This document shows positions 7,939 to 46,115 of a DNA stretch of 64,000 nucleotides, piece after piece. Each line of letters starts with the position of its first letter. The stretch's first letter is position 1. The stretch comes from Allobosea sp. 117 (GTDB lineage Bacteria; Pseudomonadota; Alphaproteobacteria; Rhizobiales; Xanthobacteraceae): NCBI RefSeq assembly GCF_000702305.1, contig NZ_JNLC01000016.1, forward strand, positions 124,001 to 188,000, read 5' to 3'. Made by a program: the position numbers and the translations under genes. The notes beneath the pieces were generated by a model. That model saw only the letters and a program-made list of their open reading frames with translations, made no database searches and had not been told where the DNA came from.

Positions 7939-10900
7939 ATGGATTGGGACATTGGCGGCGCGCCGCTCGCGGGCGACGGGGTCGAAGCGCGCGCGGTCGA
8001 GATCCGGGCGGATATGGCGGCGAGCTTCACCTTTGCCTCGTTCCAGAACGCCGTGCCGGTGTTGCGGTCGATCGCCATCGCCAACCCGACCGACCGGCAC
8101 CTCGAATCCTGCCGGCTTGAGCTCGTCGCGAATCCCGCATTCCTGCGGCCGAAGGTCTGGGCCGTCGACCGCATCGTGCCGGGCGACACCCTCAATCTGG
8201 CGGACCGGCGGGTCGACCTCGATGCCGCCTATCTCGCCGGGCTGGATGAGGCCGAGCGCGGCGAGGTCACGCTGAGGCTCACGGCCAAGGATGCCGTCGT
8301 CGCCGAGCGCCACATGTCGGTCCGGCTGCTCGCGCGCGATGAATGGGGCGGAGTCGGCGACATGGCGCAGTTGCTGCCGGCCTTCGTCATGCCGAACGAT
8401 CCGGCGGTCGCCGGCCTGCTGCGCGCCGCGGCCGAACGCCTTGCGGCCCATGGCCATCCCTCCGGCATGGACGGCTACCAGAGCAACAGCCCGCAGCGTG
8501 CCTTCCTGCTGGCGGCGTCGCTTTATTCGGCGGTCGCGGGGCTCGGGCTGCATTATGCGGAGCCGCCGGCGAGCTTCGAGCAGCGCGGGCAGAAGGTGCG
8601 GCGCCCGTCGGTCGTCGCCGGCGACCGGCTGGCAACATGCCTCGACGGCGCCGTGCTGTTCGCGGCGGCCCTGGAAGCCGCCGGCCTCCATCCCGTTCTG
8701 CTGCTGTTCCGCGGCCACGCGGCCGCCGGTGTCTGGCTCACGCCCCGCAGCTTCTCCAATGCGATCGAGACCGATCTGATGGAGGTGCGCAAGGCGCTCG
8801 CGTCGCGGGAGCTGATCGTCTTCGAGACGACCGGCGTGACACATCGCCCGCCGATCGTCTTCGACCATGCGCAGTCCCTGCTCTCTCCACGATTGGAAGA
8901 CGCGGAAGCGCATAATTTCGTCGCGGCGGTCGACGTGCGCCGGGCGCGCGGCAGCGGTATCACGCCGCTTGCCTCACATGAGGCTCTGCGGACGGGCACG
9001 ATGGCCGAAGCGGACGGCGACGGTCCTGTCGATCTGCCTCTGCCGCCCGCGCCGCACCTCTCAGAGATGCCGGCGGCATTGACGGAGGTGAAGCCCACCA
9101 CGGCGGCGGGCCGGATCGACCGCTGGCAGAAGAAGCTGCTCGATCTCACCCTGCGCAACCGGCTGCTGAATTTCCCGGAATCGAAGAAGACCATTCCCTT
9201 CCTGTGCACCGCCGTCGCCTTTCTCGAGGATCGGCTCTCGGACGGTGCCGCCGTGCGGCTGATCTCCCTGCCCGAGCAGAACCCGCTCGGCGAGCGCGAC
9301 GCGAGCCTCTACCGCGAGACGCGCGGGCGGGACCTCGATCGCGGCTTCGCGGCCGAGGCGCTGGCGCGTGACGAGCTGCCCTCCACGCTCGACGCGAAGA
9401 AGCTGGAAGCCCGCCTCGTCGAGCTGCACCGGCAGGTGCGCAACGACATGGCGGAAGGTGGCGCCAACACGCTGTTCCTCGCAGTCGGCTTCCTGCGCTG
9501 GAAGAAGGCGCCGACCGACGAGCGCAGCTATCGGGCGCCGCTCCTGCTGGCGCCGGTGAAGCTGGACCGGCGCAGCGCCACCTCGCAATTCTTCCTGCGC
9601 TTCCACGAGGACGAGCCGCGCTTCAACGCGACGCTCCTGCAGTTCCTCGAACGCGACTTCGCTCTCGCCCTGCCGCAATTCGCAGGAGAGTTGCCGCGCG
9701 ACGAGAACGGCGTCGACGTGCAGCGCCTGATCGGCGCGATGCGCCATGCGGTGCGCGACGTGCCGGGCATGGAGGTACTGGACGAGACCGCACTCTCCAC
9801 CTTCTCCTTCGCCAAGTTCCTGATGTGGAAGGACCTCACCGAGCGCACAGACGCTCTGCGCGAGAACCGAGTCGTGCGGCACCTGATCGATACACCCGAG
9901 CAGGCCTTCGAGACGGATCATGCCGCCGTTACGGAGGAATGCGAGATCGACCGGCGCTTCGCGCCCGCCGATATCATCTCGCTGCTGCCAGCCGATTCCT
10001 CGCAGATCGCCGCCAGCATGGCGGCCGCCTCGGGTTGCGATTTCGTCATCGTCGGACCGCCCGGCACCGGCAAGAGCCAGACCATCGCCAACATGATCGC
10101 GAACTGCCTGGCGGTCGGCAAAACCGTGCTGTTCGTCGCCGAGAAGACAGCGGCGCTCAACGTCGTCTATCGCCGCCTGCGCGAGCACGGGCTTGGCGAT
10201 CACTGCCTGGAGCTTCACTCAAACAAGGCCGACCGGAAGCATTTCCTCACCCAGCTCAAGCGCTCCTGGGAGCATGGCGGCCAGCGCTCCGCCTCGGATT
10301 GGGTGCTGGTCAACGAGAAGCTCAGGATCCGTCGCGATGCGCTGAACGCCTATGTCGAAGCGCTGCACCGTCGCCATCGCAACGGCCTCACCGCCTATGA
10401 GGCGATGGGCATGGCGGCGCAGGGCGAAGGGCGGCATGCGCCGGCGCTCTCCTGGACAAGCCTCGATGCGCATGACGGCGCCGCCCGCCAGGGGCTCGAG
10501 GAGATGGCGGCTACGATCGGCCGCGCCTTCGCGGCCACCGAGCGGCGCCCGGCGCTGCATCTAGTCACCGCGCCGGAATGGAGCTCGGCCTGGCAGGAGC
10601 GCCTCCTCGCGGCGGCGAATGACGTACGCGGCCACGCCGTCGGGCTGGGCAAGGCGCTCGCGACCTTTCTCGGCCGCATCGGCCTGCCGCCGGCCGCCGA
10701 CGCGCCGCTGCCGGAGATGGAGCGCCTCGCGGTCCTGGCGGAGTCCCTGTGCTCCACCGCCGGCCGCGACCACCGCATCACCTTCGATCCAGAATTCGGC
10801 CGGCTGCGCGAGGCGCTCAGCCAGCTCGATCGAGCCATCGTCGCCTACCGCACGGCTGAGTCCCGTCTTACCGCGCGGTTCGCGCGCGACACTGTTCCAC

Positions 10901-13900
10901 GGGTTCCCGTCGAGCAGCTTGAACAGGACTGGCGCGAGGCCACCGCGGCGATCTGGCCGAAGAGCTGGCTCGCTAGGCGGCGGGTGCGCAAACTGCTCCA
11001 GAGCCACGCCACGTCGGGCATGCCCGACCCCGAAACGGACCTGCCGCTGCTGCGGACCATGCAGGAAAGCCGCTCGGCGGTGGAGGCGAGCAGCCTGGCT
11101 GGCAAGCCCATCGGCTTCTCCGGCCTCGACACCGACGTCGCGGCGGTCAGCGAGCATATCTCCAGCGCCGCCAGCCTGCGCGAAAGCCTGCTCCATCTCG
11201 GCTGCGCCGCCGATGAGCTCAGGTCGGTCGTCGCGGCGATCGCACCCATCCTGGCTGAAGGTGGGTCGAACGACCCGGTCCGGCAGGCCGCCCGCGACTA
11301 TCTCGCCGCCCTGCGGACGTTCCGCGCGGGCGCGGGGCTGTTCGCCGAGATCGCCGGCAGCGATCCCCTCGCCTCGACCGCCGCGCGCCCGCTGACCGAT
11401 CTCGCCTCCGCAGCAGCCGAGCTCGTCGAAGCGCGCGGCCTGCTGCGCGGCTGGACTGATTGGTGCGGCACCCGGCAGACAGCCGAGGCGCATGGACTTG
11501 GGGCCCTGATCGCCGATCTCGAAAGCGGCGCCGTCCGCCCGGATGGGGCCGAGGCGGCCTTCCGTCTCGCCTATGCCCGCTGGTGGCTGCCGCCGACGCT
11601 CGACGCCGAACCGGTGTTGCGCGACTTCCAGCGCTTCCGGCACGAGCACGCCATCCGCGAGTTCCGCGAGATCGACGATCTCGTGCGGACACAGGCGACG
11701 CAGCGCGTGATCGCCGCCATCGCGCACGGCCTGCCGGGGGTGCAGAGCGTGCCGCGCAATTCCGAGCTCGGCCTGCTGCGCCATCAGATGGAACTGCAGC
11801 GGCCCAGCCGCTCGATCCGCGAGATGATCGGCACCCTACCCGGCAGCTTCGCCAAGCTCGCGCCCTGCATGCTGATGTCGCCGCTCTCCATCGCGCAATA
11901 TCTGCCGCCGAACCAGGCACTGTTCGACGTCGTCATTTTCGACGAGGCCTCGCAGATCACCACCTGGGACGCGGTCGGCGCCATCGCGCGCGGGCGGCAG
12001 ACGGTCATCGTCGGCGATCCGAAGCAGCTCCCGCCAACCAATTTCTTCGGTCGCAACGAAGAGGACGAGGCGATCGAGGAGCACGAGCGCGATCTCGAAA
12101 GCATCCTCGACGAGGCCAAGGCCGCCGGCATTCCGGTGCGCGACCTGCGCTGGCACTATCGCAGCCGCAACGAGTCGCTGATCGCCTTCTCGAACGCGCA
12201 TTACTACCAGAACCGGCTGATCACCTTCCCCTCGCCCGCCGTCGAGGACCGCGCCGTGCGCCTGCGCCACGTGCCGGACGGCATCTATGACCGCGGCAAG
12301 AGCCGGACGAACCGCATCGAGGCCGGCAAGGTGGCGGAAGAGACGGCCGCGCGGCTGCGCGGCTGGCTCAAGCTGAAGGAGAACGAGCGGCCGACGCTGG
12401 GCATCATCACCTTCAACGACCAGCAGCGCTCGCTTATCCAGGATCTGCTCGACGAGGCGCGGCGGGCAGAGCCCGCGCTGGAATGGTTCTTCGCCGAGGA
12501 GCGGATCGAGCCGCTGATCGTCAAGAACCTCGAGAACGTGCAGGGCGACGAGCGCGACGTCGTTCTGTTCTCCACCACCTTCGCGGCGGACGCGGCCGGC
12601 AAGCGCTCCATGGATTTCGGCGCGCTCAACCGCGAAGGCGGCGAGCGCCGGCTCAACGTCGCGGTGACGCGGGCGCGGCAGGAACTCGTCGTGTTCTCCG
12701 GCTTCACCGCCGATCTCATCGACACCGACCGCACCAAGGCAGTCGGCGTGCAACATCTGAAGACGTTCCTCGATTTCGCCGAGCGCGGCGCGATCGCCCT
12801 GCCCGCGCAGGACGAAGGATCGGTCGGCGCGCCGGACTCGCCCTTCGAGGAGGCGGTGATCGCCGCGCTCGACCGCCTCGGCTGGCAGACCGTGTCGCAG
12901 GTGGGCATTTCCGGCTTCCGGGTCGATATCGGCGTGAAGCATCCGGACCGTGCCGGCGCCTATCTCGCCGGCGTCGAATGCGACGGCGCGACCTATCACC
13001 GGGCCGCCACCGCCCGCGACCGCGACAAGGTGCGCGAGCAGGTGCTGCGGGGGCTCGGCTGGAACATCGTACGTGTGTGGTCGACCGACTGGTGGTTCGA
13101 TTCCCAAGGTGCCACGCGGCGCCTGCATCAGGCGCTGGACGATCTGCTGGCGGCGAGCCGGCAGCAAACGGCGGACGAATCCGAAACGGCACCCGCGCAT
13201 TGGGACATGGGGCACCAGGTCGAGCCGGCGGACGAAACGCTGGCGGCCGAGGCCGATGCCGACGATAGCTCCGGCTCGCCGCCGATGGCTGGTCTGCCGG
13301 AAGATGTGGTGCCGCTCGAACCCGCCTTGCCCGAACGCATTGCCTCGCTCGGCGCTCGGTCAGCCCCACCCCACATCGTCGCGCCCCAATCCCCGCTCGG
13401 CCACTCCATCGCGTCCAGCGAGGTGATCGGGAACGCAGGCGAGGCAACGGGCGCATCCGTCGACGGTCTTGGCTATCGCATGACCGACCTTTCCGGCATC
13501 CGCGCCGAGCCGGAGCGCTTCTTCGACATCGCCTATCACGGCACGCTGAGCGCCATGGTCGAGGCGATCATCGATTGCGAGGCGCCGCTGCGCGAGGACC
13601 TCCTGCTGCAGAAGATCGCCCGCGCCCATGGCTGGCTCAGGACCGGCGGCCGAATCCGCGAGCGCATCATGCTGCATCTGAAGAACGTCGACCGCACCCA
13701 GGAATCGAGCGGCGTCTTCCTGTGGAAGCGCGGCACCGTGGCGGAGATCATCGCCTACCGTGCGCCGTCCGACAGCGAGGCGCGCCGGCAGATAGCCGAG
13801 ATTCCGCTCGCCGAGCTCGCGCAGATCGTCATGCAGAACCGGCACTTTCTGGACTGGGATGACCCGCCTCTCGCTTTCGCCCGGCTGCTCGGTGTCGAGC

Positions 13901-13974
13901 GGCTCGCAGCCTCCTCGCGCGAGCGGCTCGCCGAGGCGGTCGCGCGTGCCGTGCAGCACGCCTCAGCCGTTTGA
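7939..13974 (+). CDS. Giant SF1 helicase with fused Vsr/MTES_1575-like nuclease (DUF4011/DUF3320)
   Basis: A 2011-residue protein. The start is taken as ATG at 7939 (a TTG two codons earlier is the alternative). Domains in order: an N-terminal beta-rich and transglutaminase-like region (about 1-320); a DUF4011 segment with WQKKLLDLTLRNRLLNFP near 396-413; a split superfamily 1 helicase with Walker A GPPGTGKS (706-713), Walker B DEAS (1335-1338), motif III GDPKQLPP (from 1359), LENVQGDERDVVLFS, and motif VI NVAVTRAR (1573-1580); a PD-(D/E)xK-type nuclease like REase_MTES_1575 (FEEAVIAAL at 1636, FRVDIGV with D1663, GVECDGATYH with E1680, then VRVWSTDWW); and a C-terminal DUF3320 module (about 1866-1920). 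A long charged insert separates helicase lobes 1A and 2A. Proteins of this build occur in defence islands and some carry anti-phage annotations. It is first gene of an operon with two SbcD/SbcC-like genes. Fold and motifs are seen; the defence role is inferred. Confidence 0.9.
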   Translation: MDWDIGGAPLAGDGVEARAVEIRADMAASFTFASFQNAVPVLRSIAIANPTDRHLESCRLELVANPAFLRPKVWAVDRIVPGDTLNLADRRVDLDAAYLAGLDEAERGEVTLRLTAKDAVVAERHMSVRLLARDEWGGVGDMAQLLPAFVMPNDPAVAGLLRAAAERLAAHGHPSGMDGYQSNSPQRAFLLAASLYSAVAGLGLHYAEPPASFEQRGQKVRRPSVVAGDRLATCLDGAVLFAAALEAAGLHPVLLLFRGHAAAGVWLTPRSFSNAIETDLMEVRKALASRELIVFETTGVTHRPPIVFDHAQSLLSPRLEDAEAHNFVAAVDVRRARGSGITPLASHEALRTGTMAEADGDGPVDLPLPPAPHLSEMPAALTEVKPTTAAGRIDRWQKKLLDLTLRNRLLNFPESKKTIPFLCTAVAFLEDRLSDGAAVRLISLPEQNPLGERDASLYRETRGRDLDRGFAAEALARDELPSTLDAKKLEARLVELHRQVRNDMAEGGANTLFLAVGFLRWKKAPTDERSYRAPLLLAPVKLDRRSATSQFFLRFHEDEPRFNATLLQFLERDFALALPQFAGELPRDENGVDVQRLIGAMRHAVRDVPGMEVLDETALSTFSFAKFLMWKDLTERTDALRENRVVRHLIDTPEQAFETDHAAVTEECEIDRRFAPADIISLLPADSSQIAASMAAASGCDFVIVGPPGTGKSQTIANMIANCLAVGKTVLFVAEKTAALNVVYRRLREHGLGDHCLELHSNKADRKHFLTQLKRSWEHGGQRSASDWVLVNEKLRIRRDALNAYVEALHRRHRNGLTAYEAMGMAAQGEGRHAPALSWTSLDAHDGAARQGLEEMAATIGRAFAATERRPALHLVTAPEWSSAWQERLLAAANDVRGHAVGLGKALATFLGRIGLPPAADAPLPEMERLAVLAESLCSTAGRDHRITFDPEFGRLREALSQLDRAIVAYRTAESRLTARFARDTVPRVPVEQLEQDWREATAAIWPKSWLARRRVRKLLQSHATSGMPDPETDLPLLRTMQESRSAVEASSLAGKPIGFSGLDTDVAAVSEHISSAASLRESLLHLGCAADELRSVVAAIAPILAEGGSNDPVRQAARDYLAALRTFRAGAGLFAEIAGSDPLASTAARPLTDLASAAAELVEARGLLRGWTDWCGTRQTAEAHGLGALIADLESGAVRPDGAEAAFRLAYARWWLPPTLDAEPVLRDFQRFRHEHAIREFREIDDLVRTQATQRVIAAIAHGLPGVQSVPRNSELGLLRHQMELQRPSRSIREMIGTLPGSFAKLAPCMLMSPLSIAQYLPPNQALFDVVIFDEASQITTWDAVGAIARGRQTVIVGDPKQLPPTNFFGRNEEDEAIEEHERDLESILDEAKAAGIPVRDLRWHYRSRNESLIAFSNAHYYQNRLITFPSPAVEDRAVRLRHVPDGIYDRGKSRTNRIEAGKVAEETAARLRGWLKLKENERPTLGIITFNDQQRSLIQDLLDEARRAEPALEWFFAEERIEPLIVKNLENVQGDERDVVLFSTTFAADAAGKRSMDFGALNREGGERRLNVAVTRARQELVVFSGFTADLIDTDRTKAVGVQHLKTFLDFAERGAIALPAQDEGSVGAPDSPFEEAVIAALDRLGWQTVSQVGISGFRVDIGVKHPDRAGAYLAGVECDGATYHRAATARDRDKVREQVLRGLGWNIVRVWSTDWWFDSQGATRRLHQALDDLLAASRQQTADESETAPAHWDMGHQVEPADETLAAEADADDSSGSPPMAGLPEDVVPLEPALPERIASLGARSAPPHIVAPQSPLGHSIASSEVIGNAGEATGASVDGLGYRMTDLSGIRAEPERFFDIAYHGTLSAMVEAIIDCEAPLREDLLLQKIARAHGWLRTGGRIRERIMLHLKNVDRTQESSGVFLWKRGTVAEIIAYRAPSDSEARRQIAEIPLAELAQIVMQNRHFLDWDDPPLAFARLLGVERLAASSRERLAEAVARAVQHASAV

Positions 13975-14026
13975 GGTAAAGCTGATCGACGTCCCCGAGT
14001 CGCCACGAGCCCCACCGAACAGGACC

Positions 14027-15145
14027 ATGTTCCGCTTCGTCCACAGCTCCGACCTCCATATCGGCAAGCGCTTCGGCAACATGCCGGAGGAACTGCGGGG
14101 CCGGCTGCGCGAGGCGCGGCACATGGCGCTGGAGCGGCTGGCGCGGGAAGCGCGCGCGACGGGCGCGGGCACCATATTGCTCGCCGGCGACAGCTTCGAC
14201 ACCGAGACCCCGAGCCCGGCCATGCTGCGGCAGGCGCTCTCGGCCATGGCCGGCGCCCCATTGCGCTGGATCGTCCTGCCCGGCAACCACGACTCCCTAC
14301 TGGCCGACGATCTCTGGGCCGCGGCGCAGGGCGCGCTGCCGGACAATGTCCATCTCGCGCTGACGCCGGAGCCGCTCCTGTTCGACGGCGCGGCGATCCT
14401 GTCCGCTCCCTGCACGACGCGCCGGCCCGGACGCGACCTGACCGAATGGATGGACGACGCGGCGACGGCGGACGGCGTCATCCGCATCGGCCTCGCGCAT
14501 GGCCCGGTTCAGAGCTTCTCCGAGGACGGGGTCGGCGCCGACGTGATCGCGCCAAACCGGCCGGCGCGCGCCGGCCTCGACTATCTGGCGCTCGGCGACT
14601 GGCACGGTCAGATGCGCATCGGCGAACGCTGCTGGTACAGCGGCGCGCCGGAGCCCGACCGCTTCAAGCATGACCAGCCCGGCCGCGCGCTCCTCGTCTC
14701 GATCGCCGCGCCCGGCGCGCCGGCTGACGTCGCACCGATCGAGACCGGCAGCTTCGACTGGCGCACGGTGCCGCTCGATCTTCTTTCCGGCGACGACGCG
14801 GTGGCCGCCCTCGCGCGCGCATTGCCCGCTGCCGCGATGCGGCGGCATGCGCTGCTGCGCATCAGCGCCAGCGGCCGCACGAGCCCCGCCATGCGCTCGG
14901 CGCTGGAGCAGGCGGTGGCACGCGAGGCCCCGGAATTCGGTCTGCTCGAGCTCGACATGGACGGCCTCGCCACCGACTGCGAGGCCGGCGATCTCGATGC
15001 CATCGACCGCGCCGGCGCGCTGCGGCAGGCGGCGGAAGCGCTGCTGGCCGAGAGCAATGACGAGGCTCGTTCCTCCGCCGAACGGGAGGTGGCGAGCAGC
15101 GCCTTGCTGCGCCTGTTCTCCTATTGCGAGGCTCTGCGGGCATGA
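14027..15145 (+). CDS. DNA repair exonuclease, SbcD/YhaO-like metallophosphoesterase
   Basis: A 372-aa calcineurin-like phosphoesterase related to the Mre11/SbcD nuclease family. ATG at 14027 opens MFRFVHSSDLHIGKRF, giving metal-site motif DxH (D9, H11). GDSFD follows with the metal ligand D55, then GNHD (86-89). Later ligands fall in GLAHG and in GDWHG. The C-terminal 150 residues form a capping domain of the kind that binds the partner ATPase. It begins 52 bp after the helicase gene, and its stop overlaps the next start in an ATGA, which implies translational coupling. The pair resembles the Firmicutes YhaO/YhaN set more than E. coli SbcD/SbcC. Expected activity is Mn-dependent DNA nuclease; this is inferred from the family. 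Confidence 0.88.
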   Translation: MFRFVHSSDLHIGKRFGNMPEELRGRLREARHMALERLAREARATGAGTILLAGDSFDTETPSPAMLRQALSAMAGAPLRWIVLPGNHDSLLADDLWAAAQGALPDNVHLALTPEPLLFDGAAILSAPCTTRRPGRDLTEWMDDAATADGVIRIGLAHGPVQSFSEDGVGADVIAPNRPARAGLDYLALGDWHGQMRIGERCWYSGAPEPDRFKHDQPGRALLVSIAAPGAPADVAPIETGSFDWRTVPLDLLSGDDAVAALARALPAAAMRRHALLRISASGRTSPAMRSALEQAVAREAPEFGLLELDMDGLATDCEAGDLDAIDRAGALRQAAEALLAESNDEARSSAEREVASSALLRLFSYCEALRA

Positions 15146-17763
15146 GGCTGACCGCGCTGCGCCTCCACAATGTCCGGCGCTTCGCCGGTAGCGGCATCGC
15201 CGTCGAGGGCATCGGCGATGGCGTGAACGTGCTGTGCGCGGCGAACGAATACGGCAAATCGACCTGCTTCGACGCGCTGCATGCGCTGTTCTTCCAGCCG
15301 CACACCGGCACGGCCAGCCCGATCCAGTCACTCCGGCCGTATAGCGGCGGCAGCCCTCTGGTCGAGGCTGATATCGCCACGGCCGACGGTCGCTTCAGGA
15401 TCAGCAAGCAGTTCTACGCCGGTCGTCGCGCCACGGTGACCGACCTCGGCTCCGGCCGCCTCGTCGCGCAGGCCGACGAGGCGGAGCGCTTCATCGCCGC
15501 GCTGGTGCGCGGCGGCACGGCGGGACCGGCCGGGCTGCTCTGGGTGCGGCAGGGCAATACCGGCCTCGACAAGCGCTCGAAGGGCGAGGACGACGAGACA
15601 CGCGCCCGCGAAAGCATCCTCTCCTCCGTGCAGGGCGAGGTCGAGGCGATCACCGGCGGGCGGCGCATGGAGACGGTGCGCGCCCGCTGCGAGGAGGAGC
15701 TGGGCAAGCTCGTCACCGCAACCGGACGCCCCAAGGCCGGCGGTCCCTATCTCGCCGCCATGGAGGAGCGCGACCGGCTCGCCGTCGAGGAACAGCGCCT
15801 TGCCGAGGAGGTCCGGCGGCTGCGCGCCGCTCTCGACCGCCGCCGTGCGGCGCGCGCCCGGCTGACCGAGATCGACAGGCCGGAGGAGACCGCGGAGCGG
15901 CTGAGCGCGCTGAAGGCCGCCGAGGCCGAGCTGGCGCAGGCGAAAGCCCGGCAGGACGCGCTGCGCGCTGCCCGCGCCGAGGCGGAGCTTGCCGCCCGGC
16001 ATGCAGACGCCGCACGTTCGACACTCGACGCCTTCGCCGCCGCCGCCGACCGTCTCGCCGGCCTGTCCCCTCGCCTCGCGGCCGGCAACGCCCAGCGCGA
16101 CGCGGCGCGTGAGCAGCAGCGCGTCGCGATCGCCGCCGGCGAGGAGGCCGCCCGCGTGGTGGAGGCCGCCGAGCGCGAGGAACGCGAGGCGCGGGAGCTG
16201 CTGGGGCGGCTCGACAAGGCCCTGCGCGCCCGCGAAGCGGCCGAGCGCCTCGCCGCCCAGCGCCAGACGCTGGAGGCGGCCGAGGCTGCGCGCGCCGAGA
16301 TCGAGCGCATCGAGGCCGCACTCAAGGCGCTCAGCCTGCCGGACGATGCGGTGAAGCGGATCGAAGCTATGGAGGCCGACATCGCGGCGCGGCGTGCCGC
16401 GATGTCGGCGCGGGCACCGGTGCTGCGGATGCGCTACCGCGACGGCGCGACCGGCGCCGTGCGGCTCGACGGCACGCCGCTGCCGGAGGGCGAGCGCGCG
16501 CTCGCCGGAAGCGTCGATCTCGACATCGACGGCATCGGCACGCTCACCCTGCGCGTGCCGCGCGAGGAGGCGGGCGCGGCGGAGCTCGCCACGGCCGAGG
16601 CGAAGCATCGCGCCCTGCTGGCCTCGCTCGGTCTCGAGAGCCTGGCGGAGGCCTATCAGCGCCAAGAGGCGCTTCGCCAGCACGCGACGGACCTCGCCCT
16701 GGCACGCCAGCGCCTCGCGCTTCTCGTGCCGAACGGACTTGCGGCCTTGCGCGAGGAGATTACGCGCCTTGCCGGCGAGAACGCCGAAAAGCTCGAACTC
16801 AAGGGCGACCCCGTGGCCGCGCGGCTCGCGCTCGACGCGGCCGGGCTTCGCGTCGAGGCCGCCCGCATTGCCGCCCGCGAGCAGCAGCCGCGTCGGATGC
16901 AGGCCGATAGCCGGCTCATCGAATCCGAGGCCACCCTGCACGCGCTCCAATCCGAGCGCGAGGCGCTGATCGCAACGCTCGGCCCCGAACCGGAGCGCGA
17001 GGCCCGGCACGCCGCACTGCGCGATACGTTCACGCAAGCCCAGCGCCGGGCGGGCGATACCCAGCAGCACGTCGAGGAATTGACGGGTGGAATCGAGCTT
17101 ACGGACGCCGAGGCGCGCGTCCTGCGGCTGCGCTCCATCGTGGACGCCGCGCGCGAGGAAGCCGGCCGGCTGCGGGTGGAACTCGCCGCGCTGAACAGCG
17201 AAATCGGCATTCGAGCGGACGAGGCGGTCGAGGAGGCCTGGGCGGAGGTGCGCGAGGCGCTGGAGGCGGCGCAGGCACGCGTCGAGCGCTTCACCCGCGA
17301 GGTCGCGACGCTCACACGCCTCGACGCCGCGCTGGAGGCCGCCCGCTCGGCCGCGCACGAACATTACTTCAAGCCGGTGATGCGCGAGCTTCAGCCGCTG
17401 CTCGGCCTGTTGTTCGAGGATGCCACCGTCACCTTCGACGAGGCGACGCTGACGCCGCGCTCGGTGCGCCGGAACGGGCTCGACGAGCGTGTCGACGTGC
17501 TCAGCGGCGGCATGCGCGAGCAGCTCGCCGTGCTGACCCGTCTCGCTTTCGCGCGGCTGCTCGCGGAGAATGGCGAGCCGGCGCCGGTCATCCTCGACGA
17601 CGCGCTGGTCTATTCCGACGACGACCGCATCGAGCGCATGTTCGACGCGCTGCACCGGCAGGCCCGCCAGCAGCAGATCATCGTGTTCTCCTGCCGCCAG
17701 CGCGCCTTCCAGCGCCTCGGCGGCCACGCGCTGCAACCGATCCCGTGGGCGCCGGAGCGCTGA
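15142..17763 (+). CDS. SMC-like AAA ATPase, SbcC/YhaN type without zinc hook
   Basis: An 873-aa Rad50/SbcC-family ATPase. The ATG at 15142 overlaps the exonuclease stop. N-terminal lobe: MRLTALRLHNVRRF and Walker A ANEYGKST (34-41). Two long Ala/Glu/Arg coiled-coil arms follow (about 190-400 and 490-740). C-terminal lobe: signature LSGGMREQ (from 787), Walker B VILDDAL (D819, D820) and an IVFSCRQR switch region. The middle, where SbcC and Rad50 carry the CxxC zinc hook, has no such motif. Instead about residues 426-480 form a predicted beta-rich insert (VLRMRYRDG to GIGTLTLRVP), as in YhaN-like proteins. It should pair with the exonuclease upstream to form an ATP-gated nuclease on DNA ends. 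Transcription from the operon runs on towards the CRISPR array 11 bp beyond the stop. Confidence 0.87.
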   Translation: MRLTALRLHNVRRFAGSGIAVEGIGDGVNVLCAANEYGKSTCFDALHALFFQPHTGTASPIQSLRPYSGGSPLVEADIATADGRFRISKQFYAGRRATVTDLGSGRLVAQADEAERFIAALVRGGTAGPAGLLWVRQGNTGLDKRSKGEDDETRARESILSSVQGEVEAITGGRRMETVRARCEEELGKLVTATGRPKAGGPYLAAMEERDRLAVEEQRLAEEVRRLRAALDRRRAARARLTEIDRPEETAERLSALKAAEAELAQAKARQDALRAARAEAELAARHADAARSTLDAFAAAADRLAGLSPRLAAGNAQRDAAREQQRVAIAAGEEAARVVEAAEREEREARELLGRLDKALRAREAAERLAAQRQTLEAAEAARAEIERIEAALKALSLPDDAVKRIEAMEADIAARRAAMSARAPVLRMRYRDGATGAVRLDGTPLPEGERALAGSVDLDIDGIGTLTLRVPREEAGAAELATAEAKHRALLASLGLESLAEAYQRQEALRQHATDLALARQRLALLVPNGLAALREEITRLAGENAEKLELKGDPVAARLALDAAGLRVEAARIAAREQQPRRMQADSRLIESEATLHALQSEREALIATLGPEPEREARHAALRDTFTQAQRRAGDTQQHVEELTGGIELTDAEARVLRLRSIVDAAREEAGRLRVELAALNSEIGIRADEAVEEAWAEVREALEAAQARVERFTREVATLTRLDAALEAARSAAHEHYFKPVMRELQPLLGLLFEDATVTFDEATLTPRSVRRNGLDERVDVLSGGMREQLAVLTRLAFARLLAENGEPAPVILDDALVYSDDDRIERMFDALHRQARQQQIIVFSCRQRAFQRLGGHALQPIPWAPER

Positions 17764-17774
17764 GCCTTCGTCTG

Positions 17775-17876
17775 CGCTTGGTTGGCCCTCGATCACCCGG
17801 CGGCTAAACTGCCTTGGCATCGTCATCGCTGGCGTAAAGGGTTGCGGTTGGCCCTCGATCACCCGGCCGCTAAACT
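17775..17876 (+). CRISPR. Minimal type II-C CRISPR array: two 36-bp repeats, one 30-bp spacer
   Basis: Repeat 1 is 17775-17810, the spacer 17811-17840 and repeat 2 17841-17876, an exact 66-bp period. The last 31 bp of the repeats (GGTTGGCCCTCGATC... to GCTAAACT) match apart from one C/G change, while the first five bases of repeat 1 diverge, as in a degenerate terminal repeat. Orientation is plus: the divergent tracrRNA (22633-22656) contains 24 nt exactly complementary to the repeat, and its lower stem pairs with the intact 5' end (GTTGCGG) of repeat 2, so the functional crRNA is spacer plus repeat 2. The 3' end of each repeat (GCTAAACT) could act as an in-repeat -10 element, as described for other II-C arrays. 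A terminator follows 12 bp later. The array is convergent with cas2. Confidence 0.88.
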
Positions 17877-17888
17877 CCAATCTCCCTC

Positions 17889-17914
17889 AAGGCCCTGTTC
17901 GCAGGGCCTTTTTT
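17889..17914 (+). terminator. Rho-independent terminator of the CRISPR array
   Basis: A perfect 9-bp stem AAGGCCCTG/CAGGGCCTT with loop TTCG runs into a T-tract on the plus strand. There is no T-tract in the minus orientation, so it ends array (and possibly helicase-operon) transcripts and not cas2. It supports plus-strand transcription of the array. Confidence 0.88.
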
Positions 17915-17948: not shown

Positions 17949-18305
17949 CTAGAACAGCGCGAGCTGTTCGGGATTTTTCGGCCCCTGTTCACGGTTTCGT
18001 CCCCGATAGGTGCGGATGTTCTCGTACTGCTTGTCGGTGATCGCGATGATGTGGACTTTGCCGGCGGCGGGCATCGCCTGCTCAATCCTGCGCTGAAAGG
18101 CCTCGGCCTGCTCCTTGCCGGCGCAGAAGCGCAGATAGACGGAAAACTGCGTCATCTCGAAGCCGAGATCGAGCAGCTTCAGCCGAAAGCCGGCCGCCGC
18201 CTTGCGCTCCTTGCGCGTGCCGACCGGCAGATCGAACAGCACGATCAGCCACATGATGCGGTATCCGGAAAGCGCCGGCGGCGCGCCATGCGTCAACGTC
18301 CCCAT
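17949..18305 (-). CDS. cas2: CRISPR-associated protein Cas2 (type II)
   Basis: A 118-aa Cas2, the homodimer that bridges two Cas1 dimers in the spacer-integration complex. The ferredoxin-like core begins MWLIVLFDLPVGTRKERKAA with the conserved D of strand 1, followed by FEMTQFSVYLRFC and VHIIAITDKQYENI. The start is ATG at 18305, two bases after the cas1 stop; an internal Met 17 residues later (MWLIVLF) is the alternative and would give the more usual 101 aa. The reading frame is intact. It is last gene of the cas9-cas1-cas2 set and is convergent with the array. Confidence 0.93.
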   Translation of the reverse strand: MGTLTHGAPPALSGYRIMWLIVLFDLPVGTRKERKAAAGFRLKLLDLGFEMTQFSVYLRFCAGKEQAEAFQRRIEQAMPAAGKVHIIAITDKQYENIRTYRGRNREQGPKNPEQLALF

Positions 18306-18307
18306 CG

Positions 18308-19207
18308 CTAGAAGCCGAGCGGCAGGCCGGGCTCCGGCAAGGCGAGGCGCTCGCCGCTTCCGGCGAAGGCGCGGGCGAGCGAGCCGGCAAGACGCTCGGC
18401 GCAGGTCGCGACCGGGCTCAGCCTCTCCGCGGTCGGCAGGTCGACGATCATGATCCGCGCGAGCGCCGCCTTGGCCTCGCCGGTCACCTCGCCCACGCCC
18501 TGGCCGACGAGACGGTGCACCTCACGGTCGACGACCGGCCGGAACGGCTCCATCAGATCGTCGACCAGAACCATGGGATTGCCGCGATTGGCGTGCTTGA
18601 GCCCGAGGCTCGGGTGCAGCCCCGCTCCCATGACGCTACGCGCGACGCCGGCGCGCAGCACGGCATAACCGTAGTTCAGTAACCCGTTGACGCCGCCGCC
18701 ATCGGTATCGCGCCGGAAACCGGACCCGAGCAGCAGCGGCCAGTAACGCCGGGCTGCCTCCGCCTCGACATTGTCCGGGTCGCCGGCGCTCACCTTCCGC
18801 GCGAGCAGGCGGAAGCCGCCCGCCTCGGCGCCGGTCGCCGCCAGCGCCGCGCCCTGGGCGAGGATTTTGGCCTGCACGATCTGCTGCCAGAGCCGCTTCT
18901 TGAGCGGCAGGGAGGCCGCGGCCTGATCCATGATGCGGCCGGCCTGCTCATGGTGGCCGTCGACCGGCCAGACGATCGCCTCGGGCCGATGGTGCGGCCC
19001 GCACAGAACCACCGGCGTGCCCCGCCGCGCCAGGGCGACGAGAACGTTGTTGGTGTGGGTGAGGCCGTGCGCGTTCATGACCACGGCAGTGATGTCGTCG
19101 ATCGGTACGCGGCCGATCTCGGCGCCGCGCTCGGCGATGGTCAGGAAGCCGCGATCGAGCGCGATATGCCGCCCGTCCGTCGCGATCTCCACCACGCGCC
19201 CGACCAT
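18308..19207 (-). CDS. cas1: CRISPR-associated endonuclease Cas1 (type II)
   Basis: Metal-dependent integrase that inserts new spacers (299 aa from ATG at 19207, which has a GAGG ribosome site; a GTG nine codons upstream is possible). The family start MVGRVVEIATDGRHIALDRG is clear. The catalytic region is intact: VEAEAARRYW holds the conserved Glu, followed by GLHPSLGLKH with the conserved His and VDDLMEPFRP with the acidic residue. The N-terminal beta domain contains IDDITAVVMN. It lies 66 bp downstream of cas9. Absence of csn2 and cas4 makes this subtype II-C. With Cas2 also intact, adaptation genes look undamaged, unlike cas9. Confidence 0.94.
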   Translation of the reverse strand: MVGRVVEIATDGRHIALDRGFLTIAERGAEIGRVPIDDITAVVMNAHGLTHTNNVLVALARRGTPVVLCGPHHRPEAIVWPVDGHHEQAGRIMDQAAASLPLKKRLWQQIVQAKILAQGAALAATGAEAGGFRLLARKVSAGDPDNVEAEAARRYWPLLLGSGFRRDTDGGGVNGLLNYGYAVLRAGVARSVMGAGLHPSLGLKHANRGNPMVLVDDLMEPFRPVVDREVHRLVGQGVGEVTGEAKAALARIMIVDLPTAERLSPVATCAERLAGSLARAFAGSGERLALPEPGLPLGF

Positions 19208-19273
19208 CGCCGCCTCGACCGCATCCCGTTGCACCCTATAGCGGAATGATATTCAAGGTTGCACCAATGACAA

Positions 19274-22200
19274 TCATTTCGTTTTGCGTGCATCGTCCGG
19301 GGTGATCGGCCACACGCGTCCGATCTCGTCCACCCGCACCCGGCCGGCATTCATCCGCTTCAGCGTGCCATAGGAGGCCATCAGCCAGCGGAACGGATCG
19401 ATCGCCGTGTCGGTGGCGTGGCGGCGGTCGAGATTGCCGGTCTCGTTGTGCGGAGCGAGCTTGAAGCGGCCGGCCGATGCATCGAGCCGGTAGACTACCC
19501 AGATCTTGGGGCCCGTGCCGTCGTCGAGCTGCAGGAGATCGCCCTTGTGCACGCGCATGATCAGGCGCGCATCCGGGAATTCGTGCTGCCAGCGCGGCCG
19601 GTACCCCGGCTGATTGGCGTCGAAGCGGCGGATCGCCTCGCCCTGCCAGCGGCCGTCGCCGGCATCGTAGATCTCGACGCAGAAATTCTCGCCGGCCGAA
19701 TAGGCCTTGTACAGCGTGCCGTCGGCACCCGCGACGGGCACGAGATATTCCGGCTTCTCGACCTTCAGCAGGCGGATGCGATGGACGCCGTGCCTGGTGT
19801 GCGGATCGCCTTCCGACGATTTGACGAAGTCGGCCAGCGCGCCTTTCAGGTCCATGCCGGCGGCCCTGGCCGCATAGACGTGGTCCCGCACCCGCTCGCG
19901 CAGGCGGATGTCGCGGGTGAGCTCGATCTCGTTCTCCGTGAGCGAAGCCAGGTCCTTGCGGCGGACGAGATTGCCGGCCTCCTTTTCCGGCTCCTTCACC
20001 AGCCCATAGGCGGTGTCCTCATGGAGCCTGCCGCCCTTGCCGTGGTCGGGCTTGTGCGAGACCACCATGGCGTCGAGCCGCGCCTTGAGCTCGTCACGAA
20101 GGCCTTCCCACGGCTCGGGGATGTCGACCTTCTCGCGCTCCTCGTCATAGCGGCTGGCGATGCGCTGCAGCAGCGAACGGTCGGTGAGCGCGGCGACGAA
20201 GGCATCGATGGCGTGATGGCGATGGTCGGCGCGGTTTTTGATACCGGAGAATTCGAGGTCATCGGTCGCCGCGCGGAAGGTCTCGTCGCGCTCCTGCACG
20301 CCAGGATAGTTGTGGTCCGGCAGCAGGCTGTTGAGGCCCCATCGGGCACGGATCATCGCGGTTAGCCGTCCGGGGATCACCCAGATGGAATAGGGATCGC
20401 AGACCGCGCCGAGATATTGCCTGGCGACGCGCGCCAGCCAGCCGGTCTCCATGAGCTGGCGCGCGAGGAAGCCGCCCATCTCCTTGTAGCGGTCGAGCGC
20501 ATCCGGACCGAAGCGCCAGTTCTTGTTGCGCGGCAGGTTGGCGGCGCGCTGGCTGATCTCGTCCCAATTGTAGGTGACGGTCCCGATGGCCGGGCTGGAG
20601 CCGAAAGCCTCGAAGGGCGTGCGCTTCCTCTTGTGCCGGTTGGCCTCGCGGAAACAGATGATCTTATTGGCCGGGCTGTCGTCGAGGCCCACCGTATAGG
20701 GGATGAGATGGTCGATATCGACCTCGGCGGACATGAGCTGCGCGAGGCTGATATTGTCGCCCGTATAGGGGAATTTTCGGTCCAGCGGGTCACGCGGGTT
20801 CAGTTCCTCCCACAGCCGCATCTTGAGCAGGTCGCGCGGCGTTGGGTCGTAGTCCCGATAGCCCGGTAGGCGCTTGATCTCGGCGACCCGACGCTCGTTC
20901 TTCTCCTGATTGCGTCTCTGCTCGGTCTGGACCTGCCGCTTCTCCTCGGGCGAAAGCTTCAGCGAACGGGTAAACTCGACGACGATCTCCTCCGGGGCAC
21001 CGAGCTCCTCGATCAGGGTGTTGACCAGCCGGCGAAGCTGCCCGAGCCCGATATGCACTGTCGGGTTGGGAAAGCGGCCGAACCGCTTCTCCTTCACGTC
21101 GCGCGGATCGCCGGAGCCGACCACGGCGTTGGGAAGCCAGCGGCCGTAATAGGGCAGCCGGTCGAGGATCTCGCCGGTCGGCGCGTTGGCATGGTCATAG
21201 CCGGCCTCGCGGGCGGCGTCGGGATAGTTCAGACCCTTGTCGTTCATCAGCGGGAACAGCTTGCGGATAGCCCGCAGTCCCAGCCGCGCGTAGCCCTCCG
21301 GCAGCGGCGTATCGGCGATGCGGGCGGCGGTCTCGACATCGAGATCGCATTCGCGCCTCAACCAGGCGACGAGCTTCGTCTCGTCCTCCTCATTCATCAG
21401 GCGGTCGACGATCGCGGCCTGGCGGTCGAGCGAAAAGCCCCGCCAAGCCTTGCCGAAACGGGTCTTGTGGGAGAGCCGCTCGGCGGTCTCGTCCCCCTTC
21501 AGCTCGGCGCGCCGCTCGCTTTCGAGATTGAAGCGCTGGTCCGCCGGCAGCTTGAGGATGCCCCTCATCTTGTCGAAGGAGACCTTGTTGCTCTGCAGGA
21601 GCGCCAGCACGATGGCGTCGCCCTCCTCCTTCGCCAGCTTGCGCGGCGAGTACCCGACGGGGCCGACGGCGAGGTTCCTCACCTCCTGCAGGATGCGGAA
21701 GCGCTGGGCGAGCGGATGCGCCCAGGCGACGCGGTACCCCTCCGGGTCCTGCTCGAAGGGGACGCCGGCCGGCTTGAGCGTGCATTTGCCGACCGGCGGC
21801 TTTTTCAGGGGACGCTGGAAGAAGATGGCGTCGTGGATCGCCTCCCGCGCCTCGGCCGTCATCGAGGGATGATGCGGCGACTGCTTCGCCCAGATGGCGT
21901 CGAACTCGTCCTCCACCAGCCGGCGCGTCGGATAAAAGTCGTAGGTGACCTTGGTGCCGGCGACCTTGCCGCGCGCACGCACGCCGCTGCGCTCCTTCTG
22001 GCGGCTCCACAGATACTGGCCGAGCGTGCCGGCTCCGATCTTCTCCATCTCCTCGGCGAGCTTGCGCTCGCCTTCCCGGATCGCGCCCTTGTCGTCGCCC
22101 TTGTTGCCGGCCTTGCGGTTGGAGAGGAAACCGCGCCGCTAGTTGAGGTGGAACAGGGCGCGCCCGACATGATGCGCCGGCAACGGCCCGTCGATCGCGG

Positions 22201-22540
22201 CGGCGCGGAGCTCGTAAGGGTCGAGCGCCTCCAGCGCCTTGCGCGCCGCGACATCCCCAGGCATCAGCCCGGCGGCGACGAGCGCTTCCATGAGCGTCTT
22301 CTGCCGATCGACAAAGCGATCGCGCCGGCGGCGCATGCCACGTGCGAGGCGGCGGTCGGCGGCATTGGAGGCACCCGATTGCGGGTCGCGCCCGTCAGAA
22401 TAGACCCGCACGCCTCCGGGGCCGGTACCCTTCGGGCGCCATTTGTCGCCGTCCCGCTCCAGCCAGACGATGAACCAGCCGATCGAATTGGAACCGATGT
22501 CGAGACCGAGACGATAGGGCCCGAAGCGTTTTTCCAGCAT
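19274..22540 (-). pseudogene. cas9: Type II-C Cas9 interrupted by an in-frame amber codon (codon 134)
   Basis: RNA-guided DNA nuclease, 1088 codons if read through, a normal II-C length. It begins at ATG 22540 with RuvC-I GLDIGSNSIGW (D14), then an Arg-rich bridge helix (LARGMRRRRDRF). At 22139-22141 the codon is TAG, sitting between LFHLN and RRGFLSNRK. In Cas9 proteins this conserved string is normally HLNQRRGF, so the change is CAG to TAG by one transition. The frame continues without any other stop. RuvC-II (IVVEFTRS, E522), the HNH core (DIDHLIPY, H611, with N in the following helix) and RuvC-III (HHAIDA, H775, D779) are all intact. Without suppression the products are a 133-aa fragment and, if re-initiated at ATG 22048, a 924-aa piece lacking RuvC-I and the bridge helix. 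No other decay is visible, so the lesion is recent or a sequence error, or the codon is read through. Confidence 0.9.
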
Positions 22541-22614: not shown

Positions 22615-22719
22615 TCGGAACGACTTACCAGGGTTTAGCGGCCGGGTGATCGAGGGTCCTCCGTTAACAAGCTGAAAAGCACCAAATGGGGTAGCCTGCG
22701 GGCTACCCCTTCCATTTTT
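22615..22719 (+). ncRNA. tracrRNA of the type II-C CRISPR-Cas locus
   Basis: Trans-activating crRNA encoded divergently from cas9. The anti-repeat (22633-22656) is 24 nt exactly complementary to repeat 2 of the array, and pairing continues with a G-U and a bulge through CCGTTAAC against the repeat's GTTGCGG end. Behind it is a small nexus-type hairpin GCT-GAAA-AGC (22671-22680), then a terminator hairpin GGGGTAGCC/GGCTACCCC (22688-22709) followed by TTCCATTTTT. The 5' end is set from the putative -10 and is approximate. The RNA looks fully functional, in contrast with the amber codon in cas9. Confidence 0.85.
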
Positions 22720-44402: not shown

Positions 44403-46115
44403 TTAGAACAGGAAGTAGCGCTGCGCCATGGGCAGCTCGCTCGCCGGGGCGCAGGTGAGCAGCTCGCCGTCGGCCCGCACCTCGTAGGTCTCGGCGTCGA
44501 TCTCGATGTTGGGCGTGGCGCTGTTGTGGACCATCGACGCCTTGCCGATGCCGCCGCGCACGTTCTCCACCGCCACCACCGACTTCTCCAACCCCAGCCG
44601 CGCGCCGACGCCGCGCTCCACCGCCGCCTGCGAGACGAAAGTGAAGGAGGTGGCGGTGCGCGCCTTTCCGTAGGCGCCGAACATCTCGCGATAGTGAACT
44701 GGCTGCGGGGTCGGGATCGAGGCGTTGGGATCGCCCATCTGCGCGGCGACGATGGCGCCGCCCTTCAGCACCATGTCCGGCTTTGTGCCGAAGAAGGCCG
44801 GCGTCCAGATGACGAGGTCGGCAAGCTTGCCCGGCTCGACCGAGCCGATATGGCGCGAGATGCCGTGCGCGATGGCCGGGTTGATGGTGTATTTCGCCAC
44901 ATAGCGCTTGGCGCGCGCATTGTCGTTGCGCTCGCTGTCGCCCGGCAGCGGACCGCGCTGCAGCTTCATCTTGTGCGCCGTTTGCCAGGTGCGGGTGACC
45001 ACCTCGCCGAGCCGGCCCATGGCCTGGCTGTCCGAGCTCATCATCGAGATGGCGCCGATGTCGTGCAGGATGTCCTCCGCCGCGATGGTCTCCTTGCGGA
45101 TGCGGCTCTCGGCGAAGGCGAGGTCCTCGGCGATGGAGGGGTGGAGGTGGTGACACACCATGAGCATGTCGAGATGCTCATCGAGCGTGTTCACCGTGAA
45201 GGGCCGCGTCGGGTTGGTGGAGGACGGCAGCACGTTTGGCAGGCCAGCCACCTTCATGATGTCCGGCGCATGCCCTCCGCCCGCCCCCTCTGTGTGGAAC
45301 GCGTGGATGGTGCGGCCCTTGAAGGCGGCGATGGTGTCCTCGACGAAGCCGCTCTCGTTGAGCGTGTCGGTGTGGATCATCACCTGGATGTCGTAGTCGT
45401 CGGCCACCGACAGGCAGTTGTCGATCGCCGCCGGCGTGGTGCCCCAGTCCTCGTGCAGCTTCAGCGAGCAGGCGCCCGCCTCGATCATCTCGACGAGGGC
45501 GCCCGGCAGCGAGGTGTTGCCCTTGCCGGACAGGGCGAGGTTGACCGGGAAGCTGTCGAAGGCGCGCAGCATCATCTCGATGTGCCAGGCGCCGGGCGTG
45601 CAGGTGGTGGCGAGCGTGCCGTGCGCCGGGCCGGTGCCGCCGCCGAGCATGGTGGTGACGCCACTCATCAGCGCGTGCTCGATCTGCTGCGGGCAGATGA
45701 AGTGGATGTGGCTGTCGAAGCCGCCGGCAGTGACGATCTTGCCCTCGCCGGCGATGATCTCGGTGCCCGGCCCAATGACGATGTCGACGCCCGGCTGGAT
45801 GTCCGGGTTGCCGGCTTTGCCGATGGCGTGGATGCGCCCGTCGCGCAGGCCGATGTCGGCCTTGACGATGCCCCAGTGGTCGAGGATCAGCGCGTTGGTG
45901 ATGACGGTGTCGACCGCCCCCTGTGCGCGTGTCGTCTGCGCCTGGCCCATGCCGTCGCGGATGGTCTTGCCGCCACCGAACTTCACCTCCTCGCCATAGA
46001 CGGTGAGGTCCTTCTCCACCTCGATGACGAGGGCGGTGTCGGCGAGCCGGACGCGATCGCCGGCGGTGGGCCCGAACATCTCGGCATAGGCGGCACGCGA
46101 AAGCTTGATGGACAT
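44403..46115 (-). CDS. ureC: Urease alpha (catalytic) subunit
   Basis: Nickel enzyme hydrolysing urea to ammonia and carbamate (570 aa). Nickel ligands and active site are complete: [11 protein letters not shown] after the SHIHF metal motif, the carbamylated lysine in [19 protein letters not shown], the flap [15 protein letters not shown], and [20 protein letters not shown] opens the N-terminal domain. Start ATG 46115. It lies 55 bp after the fused gamma/beta subunit and 44 bp before ureE. Assembly with UreAB into the (alpha beta gamma)3 core is expected. Confidence 0.97.

Follow-up and report, generated by a model that had tools for sequence, protein, structure and literature searches.

Inactivated type II CRISPR-Cas systems have been described in several bacterial groups. 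Among the mollicutes, at least 8 of 21 type II systems are predicted to be inactivated or degraded, a Cas9 of Mycoplasma arthritidis has a predicted UAG at residue 394 that was created by a frameshift, and for a stop-bearing mollicute Cas9 a self-targeting spacer is reported to be tolerated (PMC6882279). In Campylobacter, natural cas9 copies of CampyICE1 are inactivated, some of them with frameshifts and stop codons, and a short repeat region flanks the gene (PMC8743540). The locus analysed here lies in a stretch of 64,000 nucleotides (the window) from Allobosea sp. 117. Like the mollicute systems (PMC6882279), it is a type II locus that is partly kept and in which cas9 is cut by a stop; unlike in the mollicute case, codon 134 became a stop by plain substitution, and the locus has one spacer for which no self-target was found. 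As in CampyICE1 (PMC8743540), cas9 is a natural, apparently inactivated copy with few repeats nearby. The CampyICE1 copies reside on an integrative conjugative element (PMC8743540); the window locus is found on a contig of 364 kb that carries tRNA genes, a comparison that refers to the contig setting alone. A paper on the window locus or its family was not found in our searches of the open-access literature. Compared with these two reports, the locus is a further case of the well-described degraded type II loci.

The source genome is a 4.6-Mb draft in 17 contigs with 97.7% completeness, of which the window covers positions 124001-188000 of contig C15; genes and composition suggest an alphaproteobacterium. 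The features of the cas operon are as follows.

19274-22540, minus strand: cas9 frame of 1088 codons including one internal stop; final codon TGA
22142-22540, minus strand: cas9 codons 1-133, upstream of the amber codon, with RuvC-I and the Arg-rich bridge helix
22139-22141, minus strand: amber codon TAG, codon 134, Gln in relatives; sole internal stop in the translation
19274-22048, minus strand: open frame of 924 codons that starts at the first ATG past the amber codon, with the remainder of the helical lobe, HNH, RuvC-II, RuvC-III and the C-terminus
18308-19234, minus strand: cas1, open, ending in TAG; TIGR03639, 217 bits (cut-off 120)
17949-18305, minus strand: cas2, open; TIGR01573, 60.9 bits (cut-off 24.5)

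In the family scan, the cas9 frame matches TIGR01865 (cas_Csn1) with 524 bits at a cut-off of 100, and both Pfam HNH_4 and RuvC_III score above their cut-offs. The piece formed by codons 1-133 gives a partial match to TIGR01865 of 80.8 bits, which is below the cut-off. An alignment with relatives revealed the motifs GLDIGSNS (residues 12-19), EIVVEFTR (518-525), DHLIPYT (610-616) and HHAIDA (775-780), which we take to be RuvC-I, RuvC-II, HNH and RuvC-III, respectively. A preliminary description of this DNA had reported an amber at codon 134 of an otherwise open Cas9, and this holds: all other 1087 codons are free of stops. The same description counted 955 further codons past the amber; the frame is indeed open, but it contains 954 sense codons, the number 955 being reached only when the final stop is included. 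The copy of cas9 in the whole genome is located at the same contig site and likewise contains one TAG.

The operon (17949-22540) consists of cas9, cas1 and cas2 alone. According to the ORF list and the family scans of its genes, space for a fourth gene is absent, and neither csn2 nor cas4 was found in it. Judged by its genes, the locus is a type II-C CRISPR-Cas locus with a presumably broken effector. Owing to the TAG at codon 134 it has to be regarded as a broken type II-C locus and not as a working member. An in-frame TAG is also present in cas2 of the relative G631 (L119 732-397), whose cas9 is open and about 65% identical to that of the window, and whose array is cut by the contig end.

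When comparing codon 134 across relatives, it becomes clear that the stop replaces a conserved residue, as had been proposed. Of 33 aligned relatives, 32 have Gln at this position, and the remaining one (L066) has an N-terminus that is not alignable. The codon is CAG in all nine relatives compared at the DNA level (the eight nearest and the congener G012). Cas9 is one continuous frame in each of the eight nearest relatives (G608, G631, G465, G448, G585, G517, G540 and G610). With the own genome counted each time, Cas9 matches were obtained at the level of the genus (4 of 30 genomes), the family (32 of 391) and the order (43 of 397). The closest full-length Cas9 relatives share 67% (L091) and 66% (L092) identity with the window sequence, and no Cas9 closer than 67% was found among the genus, family and order genomes, so there is no sister strain for comparison. 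A scan of named genomes yielded five further Cas9 loci with 24-43% identity, none of them a near relative.

Three flagged loci were checked for an amber position shared with the window, and none has it. The TAG of G074 is located at the gene end and the TAA of G418 before the start, both outside the gene proper, while the TAG of G008 lies nine codons beyond the amber of the window in a gene that is otherwise broken, too. A TAG was also flagged in G423 and G471. The single TAA flagged in L093, L094, L095 and L098 was taken as the normal gene end, because the alignments of those genes to query residue 1081 are stop-free.

The CRISPR array is located next to cas2, and the tracrRNA just upstream of cas9.

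17775-17810, plus strand: CRISPR repeat 1, outer end, with a degenerate 5' end and one base change relative to repeat 2
17811-17840, plus strand: sole spacer, 30 nt, with boundaries set by comparison with relatives
17841-17876, plus strand: CRISPR repeat 2, proximal to cas2; 28 bases pair with the anti-repeat
17889-17910, plus strand: terminator-like hairpin 3' of the array; a similar element occurs in L118, L119, L120 and L124 and is absent in L121
22630-22720, plus strand, ends approximate: tracrRNA, with the anti-repeat at about 22630-22658, a stem, and the terminator hairpin at 22688-22709

Set against the 36-nt repeats of relatives, the array unit is a 36-nt repeat plus a 30-nt spacer, giving a period of 66. 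The eight nearest relatives have the same kind of repeat with the 66-base period beside cas2, and cas9, cas1 and cas2 were matched in all eight. In the preliminary description the array had been called intact, and in this point it has to be corrected: the array comprises only two repeats and one spacer, compared with about 19-33 repeats in relatives, and no further repeat copies within 3 mismatches were found elsewhere in the genome. Six relatives with arrays uncut by a contig end have 20 (L118), 33 (L121), about 19 (L123), 23 (L124), about 22 (L126) and 21 repeats (L120); the range of about 19-33 refers to the main arrays of these six, and equally to those of the five uncut among the eight nearest relatives. 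Contig ends truncate the arrays of L119 (5 repeats), L122 (2) and L125 (2), and in L127 and L128 no array was found in about 17 kb each. The 21-repeat array of L120 is accompanied by a second one of about 12 repeats; the two nearby arrays (10792-13227, G465) run in opposite directions and have near-identical repeats. The near type II-C relatives have a continuous Cas9 in all eight cases and long main arrays in the five uncut ones, whereas the window combines an amber Cas9 with one spacer. The array appears to have shrunk through deletion between repeats instead of never having grown, but a one-spacer array can also fit a young or idle array.

Other parts of the preliminary description, namely that the catalytic motifs, cas1, cas2 and the tracrRNA are intact, agree with our analysis, as the motifs are present, the frames are open, and the tracrRNA pairs with the repeats. 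The duplex energies of the anti-repeat are -61.2 kcal/mol (repeat 2) and -55.9 kcal/mol (repeat 1), the repeats having been placed six bases off in this calculation. Anti-repeat, stem and terminator align with L120, L121, L122 and L125 among the eight near relatives compared; in the other four, the sequence upstream of cas9 is unaligned with the tracrRNA stretch of the window. Because of the anti-repeat pairing and the alignment with four relatives, the single crRNA unit looks usable in principle.

In the own genome and 29 congeners, the sole spacer matches only its own array within 3 mismatches. We therefore dismissed self-targeting as the cause of the loss, since no other match within 3 mismatches was found in any of these 30 genomes. 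Nor did searches for phage, plasmid and viral targets give a convincing match. Among the best 8 of 72 phage records the lowest E-value was 8, among the best 8 of 151 plasmid records it was 0.1, and two 20-mers of the spacer gave no exact matches in viral contigs. As neither a self-target nor a convincing phage, plasmid or viral target was found, tolerance of a self-targeting spacer lacks support at the window locus.

The age of the stop can be bounded from the frame that follows it. If transitions are weighted above transversions and GC to AT changes are given double weight, as assumed here, 67% of the one-step stops in cas9 are TAG and 22% are CAG to TAG, so that TAG is the likeliest one-step stop at this cas9. 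With the same weights, 3.1% of substitutions past the amber would make another stop. As the 954 codons that follow contain no further lesion, the neutral drift after inactivation is bounded at about 0.8-3.3% of sites (95% bounds: 3.3% without indels, 1.3% with 0.05 indels per substitution, 0.8% with 0.1). The dN/dS ratio of the window cas9 is 0.26 against both L118 and L119 and 0.39 against L120, with dS of 0.8-1.1 being near saturation, and for the part after the stop it is 0.27-0.41. Five pairs of relatives gave 0.28, 0.18, 0.14, 0.11 and 0.10, which places the window toward the high side. These ratios suggest that purifying selection acted along the long branch of the window.

The window Cas9 differs at 19 of 180 columns conserved to at least 90%, the second highest value of 30 rows, and at 3 of 97 columns conserved to 97%; L065, L066, L069 and L070, which are partial sequences or have an N-terminus that is absent or cannot be aligned, are not part of this count. 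It also departs from 31 of 351 columns that are invariant in nine relatives, the stop included, while the same test on four of the nine gave 2/353, 1/352, 4/355 and 13/364 departures. Divergence of this kind is expected in part, because within the set the window forms a lone outer branch, and it may reflect lineage; the column counts also leave room for relaxed selection on cas9 before the stop. Unique changes of the window relative to L118 amount to 100 versus 26 in cas9, 24 versus 9 in cas1 and 2 versus 4 in cas2. A relative-rate test on these was dropped as invalid, since the window itself is the outer branch of the relatives used. Plain identities between the window and L118, as opposed to those between L118 and L121, are 66.3% versus 72.2% for cas9, 73.4% versus 79.5% for cas1 and 78.8% versus 75.4% for cas2. 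By this measure cas9 is unremarkable beside cas1, and cas2 goes in the opposite direction.

Within the genus, the congener G012 has an open Cas9 and about 22 repeats. The Cas9 of the window is 44% identical to that of G012 and 67% to that of G608. A second Cas9 lineage of the genus, that of G012, is represented in G008 (L127 11387-8257; 63-78% identity), where Cas9 has the TAG and frame breaks, cas2 is broken, and neither a cas1 match nor an array was found; G007 has a remnant of a G012-lineage Cas9. By sequence comparison, the window Cas9 belongs to a lineage separate from that of G012, G008 and G007. As the window Cas9 is broken and the other lineage is broken in G008 and G007, loss is seen in both Cas9 lineages of the genus.

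The locus is bordered at 13859-17763 by two genes that we take to be sbcD-like and sbcC-like (the latter at 15124-17763), whose end is separated from the outer CRISPR repeat by 11 bases. A homologue of the sbcC-like gene is present in 20 congeners, and in these no cas1 or cas2 was found within up to 1.5 kb beside it (in L150 the contig ends about 290 bases from the homologue), and the site is therefore peculiar to the species of the window among those compared. Elsewhere in the window, positions 45674-45963 match the Rfam 5' ureB sRNA with 138 bits, antisense to an ORF of 570 codons (44403-46115); perhaps this match is merely conserved coding sequence read in reverse.

Taken together, we consider it likely that the TAG is genuine and that this nonsense mutation arose fairly recently in the cas9 of a shrunken type II-C locus. 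The lone stop, the conserved Gln, the short array, the Cas9 decay in congeners and the purifying selection speak for a recent loss; the dN/dS toward the high side, the departures at conserved columns and the failure to find a self-target as driver of the loss speak against it. Of the three readings offered previously, a system that has just been switched off is the best supported, while amber suppression is not supported, since no CTA tRNA was found and RF1 is intact. The locus looks like an ordinary loss of an immune system, neither a recoded nor a suppressed gene. We infer a real base, a recent loss and the absence of full-length Cas9.

A sequencing or assembly error, with Cas9 intact in the living strain, is improbable, although the genome is a draft in 17 contigs, the nearest Cas9 is only 67% identical, and the lesion is a single one in an otherwise open gene. 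Because only about 3% of cas9 substitutions give a stop, an error of exactly this kind is unlikely beforehand. Moreover, of the three congeners with any Cas9, two (G008 and G007) have a decayed one, and the one-spacer array is an independent sign of an idle locus.

Amber suppression or natural read-through, in which a near-cognate tRNA-Gln inserts the conserved residue and yields enough full-length Cas9, is very unlikely. The conserved residue is indeed Gln, which is commonly inserted at UAG by near-cognate reading in E. coli; the codon context is TAG C, and the frame past the amber is without further lesion. However, none of the 43 tRNA genes found in the genome has a CTA anticodon; every anticodon is a sense one, and Gln-CTG and Gln-TTG are represented by a single gene each. 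Missing from the set are tRNA-Ile-GAT and tRNA-Ala-TGC, whose genes are usually located in rRNA operons, so the assembly is incomplete for tRNAs and a missed tRNA gene is possible. The release factor 1 gene prfA is intact and stop-free (478.7 bits at a cut-off of 423.25). TAG ends 5 of 38 window ORFs, including cas1, besides 31 with TGA and 2 with TAA; these ORFs were chosen by length and codon-position GC, the cas9 piece after the amber is one of them, and one of the five TAG-ending ORFs overlaps another and may be no gene. An amber-suppressing or amber-recoding genome is thus not supported. We give just as little credence to the amber as a throttle, whereby traces of full-length Cas9 from Gln read-through would keep the frame under selection and provide a muted, reversible one-guide immunity.

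Least probable of all is a separate use of the pieces, the 133-residue N-terminal part and a product from the ATG at 22048 forming a split or truncated Cas9, e.g. a guide-binding regulator: both pieces are open and the TAG of G008 is only nine codons further on, but the purine run abuts the ATG without normal spacing, cas9 is continuous in all eight nearest relatives, and the G008 gene is otherwise broken, with more frame breaks and no array or cas1 match found, so the nearness of its TAG is best taken as chance.

If the TAG is a real nonsense mutation, as we favour, this one change would remove the effector of a type II-C locus. Translation would end after 133 residues with RuvC-I and the bridge helix only, and since it would halt there, the guided nuclease would not be made. 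The uptake of spacers in type II systems requires Cas9 as well, so growth of the array should have ceased. The tracrRNA and the single crRNA unit could seemingly still be made, with their full-length partner missing. The case would gain weight if sister strains revealed the order of events, i.e. whether array or Cas9 went first, or if read-through proved true. It provides a clean example of early CRISPR loss, in which the effector is off, the adaptation genes and the tracrRNA are kept, and the memory is down to one spacer.
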